DNA of 64,000 nucleotides from Ferrithrix thermotolerans DSM 19514 (GTDB taxonomy: Bacteria; Actinomycetota; Acidimicrobiia; Acidimicrobiales; Acidimicrobiaceae): contig NZ_FQUL01000011.1 of assembly GCF_900128965.1 (NCBI RefSeq), positions 1 to 64,000 of the forward strand. The letters are read 5' to 3'. The stretch's first letter is position 1; every line of letters starts with the position of its first letter. Shown piece after piece: positions 21,829 through 28,018 of the stretch. The notes under the pieces were generated by a model. It ran no database searches. It had not been told where the DNA came from and saw nothing but the letters and a program-made list of their open reading frames with translations. The translations under genes were made by a program, and so were the position numbers.

Positions 21829-22614
21829 TCAGGAGTACGAAACAGACAACATGGAGATGCCAGCTCCGCCAAAGCCCGTGGTGGGAAAGCTCAGGTCGTC
21901 TTCTTGGTCCTTGGCGCCTAAGACATAAAGGAGTGGCAGGTAGTGATCCGGAGTAGGGATCGAGAGTTCTGCCTCCTTCCCAAGTCGATCGAAGTTGATA
22001 AGAGAGCTGAAGCGCTCTTGAGCTAACAGATCTCTTACCATGGCATCGAACGTCACGTTCCAGCTCTCTGGTGGTCCGCCAAGGCCGTGCTCTGACTGAA
22101 ACGTTGCGGCGAGATTGTGAACCACGTTTCCGCTTCCAAGAATGAAGACACCCTGCTCTCGGAGCGGAGCAAGGGCCTTCCCAATCTCAAAGTGCTGTTT
22201 TGGAGTGAGGGTGGCGTCTATGGAGAGCTGGACAACGGGGACGTTGGCCTCAGGGAACATCTGCATAAGCAAAGACCAGGTTCCATGATCCAACCCCCAG
22301 CTCTGATCCATTACTACCGGTCTTTGTGGAAGAAGGTCTGCGACAGCCTTAGCCAACTCTGGATCTCCCTTTGCTGGATAGCTAACCTCATAGAGTCGAT
22401 CTGGGAAACCTCCAAAGTCGTAGATGGTTCTAGGTGCGCTCATCGCCGTTACGCCTGTACCTCTTGTGTACCAGTGAGCCGAAATACAAAGGATCTGCCT
22501 CACCTCTCGACCTAGAGACTCTGAGTACTTTTGCCAGCTCTTTGTGAAGTCGTTTTCTTCGATTGCGTTCATAGGTGAGCCGTGTCCGAAAAATGCTACC
22601 GGCAACTTTGTCAC
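21829..22614 (-). CDS. ygiD: 4,5-DOPA dioxygenase-type extradiol enzyme
   Basis: A 261-residue member of the LigB/DODA family of non-haem iron ring-cleaving dioxygenases. Family residues visible: GHGSPMNAIEEN near the N-terminus with a metal-binding His, the ISAHWYTRGTGV segment, and LDHGTWSLLMQMFP with a second His. A late His in GSGNVVHNLA completes the set. Start GTG one base after the stop of the marR gene, so the two form an operon. The MarR-type regulator probably responds to a phenolic ligand. The true substrate is unknown. Confidence 0.88.
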   Translation of the reverse strand: MTKLPVAFFGHGSPMNAIEENDFTKSWQKYSESLGREVRQILCISAHWYTRGTGVTAMSAPRTIYDFGGFPDRLYEVSYPAKGDPELAKAVADLLPQRPVVMDQSWGLDHGTWSLLMQMFPEANVPVVQLSIDATLTPKQHFEIGKALAPLREQGVFILGSGNVVHNLAATFQSEHGLGGPPESWNVTFDAMVRDLLAQERFSSLINFDRLGKEAELSIPTPDHYLPLLYVLGAKDQEDDLSFPTTGFGGAGISMLSVSYS

Positions 22615-23189: not shown

Positions 23190-23194
23190 TAATT

Positions 23195-23533
23195 GTTCGA
23201 GCTGACCTATAGGCGGGGTTCTGTCCGGTCTACGACCTGGGTAGCCATCCATCTATGCAGTCCACCTGAGGCTGTAACCTAAGGTTACGAGCGGGCCGCT
23301 CATGCCTCGTCTTGACCTTGCTCCGGATGGGGTTTGCCGAGCCAGGGGAGTTACCTCCTCTGCTGGTGTGCTCTTACCACACCGTTTCACCCTTACCAGC
23401 TTTTATAGCTGGCGGTCTGTTCTCTGTTGCACTTTCCTGCGAGTCACCTCGACTAGCCGCTAGCTAGCATCCTGCCCTGTGGAGCCCCGACCTTCCTCAG
23501 AGATTCCTCCGCGGCTACCCGGTCAGCTCGAAC
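23195..23533 (-). ncRNA. rnpB: RNase P RNA
   Basis: Read on the minus strand, the transcript has the hallmarks of bacterial type A RNase P RNA. They are the P4 5' element GAGGAAGGTCGGGGCTCC, then ACAGGGCAGGATGCTAGC, then GGGTGAAACGGTGTGGTAAG, the substrate-binding GGTAACTCCCC region, GCAAACCCCATCCGGAGCAA, and the P4 3' element ACAGAACCCCGCCTATAGG. The ends pair as P1 (GTTCGAGCTGACC with 23195-23207). It is the catalytic RNA that matures the 5' ends of tRNAs. Exact ends are estimated from the P1 stem. Confidence 0.97.
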
Positions 23534-23654: not shown

Positions 23655-23879
23655 ATGGCAGGACAGCAAGGTCAAACGCAGGCGAAGAACGGTCCGTCGA
23701 GGTCTATGACGATATTCTTATTCTTCCTAGCTGTGGTGTTTTTCGTTGTTGTGGGTGGGGTGATAGTGCAAAACTCCTCACTTGGAGAAAGATCGTGGCA
23801 GCAACCCGCCGTTGGAGCATCCTACAACGGTTACTCAGGAGCACCGGTAGGGTCTTCGATCTACCAGTCGAACCCCTAG
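23655..23879 (+). CDS. Small single-pass membrane protein
   Basis: A 74-residue protein with a Gln/Lys-rich N-terminus, one hydrophobic segment (about 18-38) and a short exported tail rich in Ser, Gly, Tyr and Pro. GGGAG lies 11 bases before the ATG. I do not recognise a family. It is divergent from rnpB, and no neighbour suggests a role. Confidence 0.5.
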   Translation: MAGQQGQTQAKNGPSRSMTIFLFFLAVVFFVVVGGVIVQNSSLGERSWQQPAVGASYNGYSGAPVGSSIYQSNP

Positions 23880-24159: not shown

Positions 24160-24753
24160 GTGACGTCTGCGGATCAGGTTGTCGAGTTTGATCTGTGTCT
24201 TGCGAGTGCGAGAGAAGGAGACTCTGACGCCTTTGGTCTGCTTTGGAAGAGGTTCCATACCAAACTTACAGCCTATGCGAGACGTCTGGATCCAATCGAC
24301 TATGACGATATTGTCTCTGAAACCTGGATAGGGGTCCATAGTGCAGTTGCAAGGTTTTACGGTTCCGAAGAGGACTTCGAAGCCTTTCTGCGTTCTATCT
24401 GCCGTCGTCGTGCTGTTGACTCTTGGCGCAGAAAGAGACGGATAGGCTGGGAGGAGCTTGCGGAGGACAGACCTCAAAGTGCAGAACCCACCCCCGAAGA
24501 GGCCATATCTTCACTGGAAGATCTTCGCTACGTAAAAGAACTCATAGGTCGCCTCCCTAAGCGGCAGCGTGCAATTGTGACCTGTAGATACCTCTACCAG
24601 CTGTCATATGCGGAGGCAGCGGTATTTTGTGGTAGCAAGGAGGGCTCTCTGCGAATCGCAAACCATCGGGCTCTTGAGAATCTGGCAAGGTATGCAGATC
24701 AAGTATTCGATCCAGATGGAGTTGGATCGTCGATACGTGGCGGTCGAGGATGA
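24160..24753 (+). CDS. ECF-type RNA polymerase sigma factor
   Basis: A 197-residue sigma-70 family protein with region 2 (about 12-93: SAREGDSDAFGLLWKRF, DDIVSETWIGVH, RSICRRRAVDSWRRKRR) and region 4 (about 120-180: LIGRLPKRQRAIVTCRYLY with a helix-turn-helix). Sigma regions 1.1 and 3 are absent, as in extracytoplasmic-function sigmas. The start is GTG with AAAGGTGA upstream. The stop overlaps the ATG of the following membrane-protein gene (ATGA), so translation is coupled. That partner is the obvious candidate regulator. Target promoters are unknown. Confidence 0.9.
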   Translation: MTSADQVVEFDLCLASAREGDSDAFGLLWKRFHTKLTAYARRLDPIDYDDIVSETWIGVHSAVARFYGSEEDFEAFLRSICRRRAVDSWRRKRRIGWEELAEDRPQSAEPTPEEAISSLEDLRYVKELIGRLPKRQRAIVTCRYLYQLSYAEAAVFCGSKEGSLRIANHRALENLARYADQVFDPDGVGSSIRGGRG

Positions 24754-25391
24754 AGGAAGAGAGCGTAACGCCGTCGCAAACGGTTTTGCCTGGTTCTGAG
24801 ACCGAGATCGCGGTGGTGGGGGCGCTAAAGGCACCGGAGAACAAGGATTCTAGCCATCTCGCAAAGGTTCGTACATGGGCTAAAAGATCGAGTTCTACTA
24901 ACCCGGCGTTAGATCTTCTAAAGACCGCAGTAGTGCTATTTTTTGCGCTTTTTGTGGGGACCACGGCGGCAAAGTCGCTCAAATTGACGCTTTTTGGATC
25001 GAAGGTGACTCATGTTCCGGTCTCGGTGGTTATTGAGCGAATAGGTGTTGGAACTAGGACCGAAGTTGAGCGAATCCGCGAGAACGAGGCGTACCAACAC
25101 CAACACAGATCGAAGATGGTCCAAGTGCCAAGCACTCTTCCGGTTACGGGACTCTCAACTACATCTACTACGGCGGTTACTTCAGGATCGACCTACGTGT
25201 CTGGCTCTTCTACCTCTGCGTCGTCCTCTACGACGACGGTTTCAACCACGACATCGGTCACGTCAACAACTGAAAAGGTGATACCGCCTAAGTCGCCCAA
25301 GGAACCAAAGCCAGCAAAGGTGATACCGCCTAAGTCGCCCAAGGAACCAAAGCCAGCAAAAGTGATACCGCCTAAGTCGCCAAAGCAGTAG
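24750..25391 (+). CDS. Membrane protein with Ser/Thr-rich and PPKSPKEPKPAK repeat tail
   Basis: A 213-residue protein with about 53 cytoplasmic residues, one membrane segment (about 54-74), and an outer region. The outer region has a charged part (about 100-122), a Ser/Thr-rich linker (about 133-175) and a tail of nearly identical 14-residue repeats with the unit KVIPPKSPKEPKPA (176-213). Its ATG overlaps the sigma-factor stop. The layout fits an anti-sigma or signal-transducing partner, but no zinc-binding HxxxCxxC anti-sigma motif is present. The tail could contact cell wall or glycans. No known family was recognised. Confidence 0.7.
   Translation: MKEESVTPSQTVLPGSETEIAVVGALKAPENKDSSHLAKVRTWAKRSSSTNPALDLLKTAVVLFFALFVGTTAAKSLKLTLFGSKVTHVPVSVVIERIGVGTRTEVERIRENEAYQHQHRSKMVQVPSTLPVTGLSTTSTTAVTSGSTYVSGSSTSASSSTTTVSTTTSVTSTTEKVIPPKSPKEPKPAKVIPPKSPKEPKPAKVIPPKSPKQ
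25275..25391 (+). repeat. 42-base tandem repeat, about 2.8 copies, in coding sequence
   Basis: Units begin at 25275, 25317 and 25359, each AAGGTGATACCGCCTAAGTC onward; the third copy is cut short by the stop codon. The first two copies are identical and the third has a single change near its start. Perfect units of this kind often change in number between strains. Confidence 0.92.
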
Positions 25392-27610: not shown

Positions 27611-28018
27611 GTGGGATATGTAAGTGGTGTTGGTGGAGGCGGTGGTGTTTCCTCGGGATCACCTACGGTGCTTCAAGCCTATCTTTCTATGTGGAAGAAC
27701 TTTGCTGACTTTCGATCAAGGACAACAAGAGCCACTTACTGGAAGGCTGCTGCGGTGAACATTGTTATTTACTTCGTTTTGTACGCAGTTACTCTCTCAT
27801 CTAACTCCACGGGAGCGATCTCGATAGTATCGATATATTCACTTGCTGCCTTGGTTCCTGGACTGGCGATAGCGGTGAGGCGCCTGCATGACTCCAACCA
27901 CTCTGGGGCTTGGATCTTTTTGGCCGTGATTCCCATTGTAGGGTCCTTGGCGGTTCTCGTCTTTATGCTGTTACCTTCCAGTCAGGAGGATAATCGCTAC
28001 GGATCCGCCTTTGTCTGA
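27611..28018 (+). CDS. DUF805 membrane protein
   Basis: A 135-residue protein with a Gly/Ser-rich N-terminus, then the DUF805 core. The features are FADFRSRTTRATYWKAAAVN, three or four hydrophobic segments, and the family motif VRRLHDSNHSGAWI (about 89-102) before the last segments. The start is GTG with GGGGAGG upstream. DUF805 proteins are small integral membrane proteins of unknown function. It is divergent from purK. Confidence 0.85.
   Translation: MGYVSGVGGGGGVSSGSPTVLQAYLSMWKNFADFRSRTTRATYWKAAAVNIVIYFVLYAVTLSSNSTGAISIVSIYSLAALVPGLAIAVRRLHDSNHSGAWIFLAVIPIVGSLAVLVFMLLPSSQEDNRYGSAFV

Follow-up and report, generated by a model that had tools for sequence, protein, structure and literature searches.

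The window analysed here, a stretch of 64,000 nucleotides of the Ferrithrix thermotolerans DSM 19514 genome (2.49 Mb, 95 contigs), contains a gene of an ECF sigma factor followed by a gene of a one-span membrane protein, and results of our analysis identify the two as a genuine and conserved pair whose general kind is known; this genus has a variant of it with a specialised, strongly conserved outer tail. The description is based on the observed pair, its architecture, conservation and synteny, the selection acting on the tail and the presence of protease genes in the host. The unusual part is the genus variant, in which the inner part of the membrane protein is shrunken, a three-helix motif present in many proteins of the wider family is undetectable, and the outer repeats are conserved. 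The membrane protein is a plausible cognate regulator of the sigma factor, and we consider it probable that it acts as a membrane-anchored, zinc-free anti-sigma partner of RsdA/RsbN-like type, controlled by proteolysis. The host is a member of the Acidimicrobiaceae, whose known habitats are acidic and rich in metals (PMC4714123).

Table. Features of the sigma factor/partner locus (positions in the window)
Feature	Position	Strand	Remarks
RNase P RNA (RF00010), synteny anchor beside the pair	23194-23530	-	257.8 bits
Small one-span protein upstream of the pair	23655-23879	+	74 aa; same position in L082, L083 and L106 (tblastn)
ECF sigma factor	24160-24753	+	GTG start, 197 aa
Sigma region 2	24241-24441	+	residues 28-94; Pfam
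Sigma region 4	24526-24684	+	residues 123-175; Pfam
One-span membrane partner, probable anti-sigma factor	24750-25391	+	ATG start, 213 aa; adjoins sigma also in G001 and G003
ATGA shared by the sigma stop and partner start codons	24750-24753	+	
Partner residues 1-38, cytoplasmic, weakly conserved	24750-24863	+	pN 0.54-0.58 vs. pS 0.73-0.81
Partner residues 39-58, conserved juxtamembrane stretch	24864-24923	+	K39, W43, S47, P52, D55, L56, K58
Membrane span, about residues 56-74	24915-24971	+	hydropathy; AlphaFold helix 52-71, low confidence
Partner residues 91-137, conserved outer block	25020-25160	+	GVGTRxEV ... HRSK ... QVPxTLPxTGxST
LPVTG, LPxTG-like motif, partner residues 130-134	25137-25151	+	common to all three genus members
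Ser/Thr-rich linker, partner residues 138-175	25161-25274	+	
C-terminal repeats KVIPPKSPKEPKPA	25275-25388	+	two full copies and one partial; TRF

The product of the first gene is a minimal ECF sigma factor. Its assignment to the ECF group follows from the presence of regions 2 and 4, both scoring above the curated Pfam cut-offs (Sigma70_r2, 44 bits; Sigma70_r4_2, 41 bits), and it also matches TIGR02937 (sigma70-ECF) with 73.6 bits at a cut-off of 42.9. The top-scoring specific NCBIfam model was PRK09648 (ShbA, of the SigD type); the score of 72.2 bits is far below the 209-bit cut-off of this model, and the protein is not assigned by it as a SigD/ShbA equivalog. The nearest solved relatives of the sigma factor include BldN (6dxo) and SigD (3vep), and CnrH is detectable as a solved relative as well. 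The GTG start codon is aligned with ATG in two congeners. The pN values of the sigma gene are 0.36-0.38 between this genome and the two congeners and 0.13 between the congeners. A promoter scan 5' of the pair gave results no better than chance, and the search for an ECF promoter in the upstream alignment of the three species revealed none that was convincing.

The initial annotation had read the locus as a sigma factor gene whose stop codon overlaps the start codon of a gene encoding a membrane protein with one span and no zinc motif, and our analysis bears this out: the two open reading frames share the ATGA, and the partner has a single hydrophobic span. It contains no cysteine and therefore lacks the HxxxCxxC motif of class I zinc anti-sigma factors (ZAS). 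No Pfam or NCBIfam family scored over its cut-off in the partner, PDB sequence searches with the protein and with both partner alignments returned nothing meaningful, and its AlphaFold model is of low confidence (pLDDT 49) and uninformative. The partner has the features expected of an RsdA-like protein, namely a span, a long disordered outer domain and an adjoining ECF gene, the disorder being judged from the composition of the outer domain and from the low confidence of the model. Since the span shows no strong charge asymmetry between its flanks, the N-in/C-out topology of the partner should be taken as probable.

The sigma factor and its partner are encoded also by two of the three other members of the genus (G001 and G003), that is, in three species in all; in the remaining member (G002), whose genome is 76% complete, the sigma gene, the partner gene and the neighbouring marR gene had no match. 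A search of genome contigs with the partner gave matches only in the two congeners. When 298 genomes from the order were scanned with the partner, one additional weak match (G111) was obtained; it was rejected as compositional, as no matching open reading frame was seen beside a sigma gene there. The gene order marR(-), RNase P RNA(-), small one-span protein(+), sigma(+), partner(+), purE(-), purK(-) is common to the window, to L082 and L083, and to G004, a representative of another genus, which carries a positional orthologue of the pair on one 5-kb contig. The partner in G004 is laid out similarly, with a long cytoplasmic part, a span and a tail rich in Ser, Thr and Pro; BLAST detects no similarity between it and the partner in the window, and the repeat and the LPxTG motif are absent from it. 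The small one-span protein encoded upstream of the pair, which has no Pfam family, is 55-78% identical in G001, G003 and G004. In the same region of the window, a LigB-type dioxygenase gene (21829-22614, minus strand) adjoins marR, a pairing kept in several genomes of the family (L090-L093), and a gene of a DUF805 membrane protein is located at 27611-28018 (plus strand).

To place the pair in the order, we compared 48 homologous ECF loci and took as the partner the longest open reading frame starting from -60 to +250 nt relative to the sigma stop codon. Such a frame was called at 46 loci. Its product has a hydrophobic span at 44 of the 48 loci (four of these proteins have two at a lenient threshold), none of the 46 called partners contains HxxxCxxC, and in 42 of the 44 span-bearing proteins at least 51% of the part following the span is Ser, Thr, Pro, Gly, Asn or Ala, i.e., it is of low complexity. 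Zinc-free one-span partners behind ECF genes are thus common in the order. Because three other ECF loci of the host genome (L004, L005 and L007) have anti-sigma partners with the zinc motif, the zinc-free type of partner goes with this particular ECF group. A second zinc-free pair is present in the host genome at L052 (2488-3399), with an ATGA overlap, the wide-family motif described below and a tail rich in Ser, Thr and Gly.

The partner is not missing beside the sigma gene in relatives, as the initial annotation had allowed it might be, because the pair is conserved: it recurs in three species of the genus, in its positional orthologue in the second genus and among the loci of the order. These data refute the idea that an ECF gene and an unrelated low-complexity open reading frame adjoin here by chance, which we regard as scarcely credible. 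Frames of low complexity appear readily, and the genus does not keep the ATGA overlap, the two genes being separated in the congeners by +48 and +39 nt (in the wider set it occurs in 12 of the 46 pairs); however, the gene order is conserved across two genera, a span-bearing protein stands at nearly all of the homologous loci, and several segments of the partner are under purifying selection.

Many partners of the wider family share a cytoplasmic motif of the approximate form LLxG...LxxLAxLIxxAxxPATxxELAxExxVxAAFR, modelled with moderate confidence as three helices. None of the ten wide-family partners scanned had a Pfam family over the cut-off, and Foldseek found no match to the wide-family N-terminal model at E <= 0.001. 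In the genus partner the three-helix motif is undetectable, and hhalign aligned its N-terminus to the wide family with a probability of 1.3%. The clade that is sister to the genus pair is not settled by the tree, in which long branches meet.

The mechanism was called unfamiliar in the initial annotation, a view that finds no support, given both the frequency of such zinc-free partners in the order and the known zinc-free membrane-anchored anti-sigma factors RsbN and RsdA (PMC8103513, PMC11175481). The outer domain of RsdA, about 160 residues long and disordered, has been suggested by analogy with RsgI as a possible sensor of envelope defects or of the cell wall; the corynebacterial protein is cut by MarP and then by Rip1, the activation of the SigD-RsdA system involving MarP, Rip1 and ClpXP (PMC11175481). 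The pair described here resembles SigD-RsdA of Mycobacteriales in combining an ECF sigma factor with a membrane-anchored protein, here a probable anti-sigma factor, whose outer domain is disordered, and both types of membrane protease are encoded in the host genome: a Rip1-like M50 protease with HExxH and NMIPLLPLDGG, and a MarP-like protease composed of CvpA and trypsin parts. In contrast to RsdA, the window partner has a cytoplasmic segment of only about 55 residues, outer K/P repeats and an LPxTG-like motif, and it lacks the RsdA_SigD_bd domain (PF16751), which was likewise found in none of the genomes of 60 relatives in a search that is weak, as it had no positive control. With BldN-RsbN of Streptomyces (ASDIII), where membrane-anchored RsbN contacts sigma4 and sigma2 by three helices (PMC7406223, PMC8103513), the similarity concerns the three predicted cytoplasmic helices of many wide-family partners and the position of BldN among the nearest solved relatives of the sigma factor; however, no match to RsbN in sequence or fold was found, and the genus partner is without the three-helix motif. 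CnrY, of class II, is an example of a short zinc-free anti-sigma segment (PMC7406223) and CnrH is related to the sigma factor studied here, but no sequence similarity of CnrY to the partner was found, the resemblance being in length only. The disordered outer region of RsgI monitors the cell wall (PMC11175481, PMC10202637), and SigI-RsgI of Bacillus subtilis is comparable as a system with an anti-sigma factor of this layout, with no sequence relation claimed.

Regulated proteolysis of a membrane anti-sigma factor would be, we infer, the most economical reading of the pair. The short cytoplasmic segment of the partner may hold the sigma factor at the membrane in an inactive state, while the conserved Lys/Pro repeat peptide, at the end of the disordered Ser/Thr-rich linker, would reach into the wall or envelope, so that a change in envelope contact or integrity could serve as the signal. 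The outer part would then be cut by the MarP-like site-1 protease and the span by the Rip1-like M50 site-2 protease, and the sigma factor would be freed.

The initial annotation had assigned residues 1-53 as a whole to sigma binding. This view is weakened, since residues 1-38 are nearly free to change and the inner conservation is limited to residues of about 39-58; the part that holds the sigma factor is most likely the latter stretch, possibly with assistance from a helix in the variable N-terminus. The comparison of sequences also provides two points against an anti-sigma role: the near absence of constraint on residues 1-38 appears odd for a binding domain, and no anti-sigma domain could be detected in the genus partner. 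Together with the outer repeats being the best conserved part, they would fit the main rival explanation, according to which the genus partner has lost its anti-sigma domain and role and is a co-expressed envelope protein, perhaps a target of the sigma factor, which would be controlled otherwise. We consider this loss unlikely, yet to be taken seriously. The partner gene lies directly behind the sigma gene in all three species and in the positional orthologue, the juxtamembrane stretch and the span are conserved (pN of residues 39-82, 0.18-0.26), and anti-sigma segments as short as that of CnrY exist.

In each of the three species the span ends on its outer side in small residues conforming to small-x-Ala (TAA, SVA, SAA), which might indicate that the partner is cut by signal peptidase and its tail released as a peptide; alternatively, the partner could be a co-activator and not an inhibitor. 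We find this improbable. An n-region of about 55 residues, as the partner would have, is long for a signal peptide, and the residues next to the membrane share in the conservation of the span.

The C-terminal repeats noticed in the initial annotation are real, but their natural unit comprises 14 residues (KVIPPKSPKEPKPA, rich in K and P) and not 12; TRF reports a period of 42 bp, 2.7 copies and 97% match at 25274-25385. A search of the whole genome for the DNA pattern of PPK(S/T/R)PK found the three copies here and only one other short place, with no occurrence in the reversed control. Within a genome the copies hardly differ from one another, and the differences between species are almost only synonymous (pN 0.02-0.07); the exceptions are position 14, occupied by A, V or I, and a few residues of the first copy and of the last. 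This pattern indicates that the repeats are homogenised within genomes and that the peptide is under strong purifying selection. By these comparisons no other piece of the pair is as strictly conserved in the genus as the repeat tail, the Ser/Thr linker preceding it drifting with pN of 0.34-0.55. In the evolution of the genus the outer repeat peptide has been retained, whereas much of the inner segment has drifted.

The LPxTG-like motif (VPxTLP[VL]TG) occurs in the outer region of the partner in each of the three genus members and is absent from all 43 other partners, and shuffling of the outer region yields such a motif in 0.4% of trials. Sortase genes are present in G004 as well as in each of the three genus members; in the genome studied, a sortase-family protein of 357 aa is encoded at G000:C74:14160-14516 (L072, L079). 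A sortase substrate has LPxTG followed by a hydrophobic span and a basic tail at the C-terminus, an arrangement that the partner does not have. By this definition the motif is not a sorting signal, because the usual following span is absent and the span of the partner is N-terminal to it. No further LPxTG proteins were seen in the searched parts of the genome. That the motif is nevertheless a real sortase site in reverse orientation seems to us very improbable. If it were one, a sortase would cut the motif, join the membrane-held sigma-binding stub to peptidoglycan and free the K/P tail; the anti-sigma factor would then be covalently tied to the wall and would provide a direct readout of wall growth or damage.

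The pair belongs to an order-wide set of zinc-free one-span partners behind ECF genes, for which no Pfam family was found. Within this set, the retention of the outer repeat during the drift of the inner segment is the opposite of the pattern one would expect of an anti-sigma factor, and for this reason the genus variant offers a tractable case for what disordered outer tails recognise.
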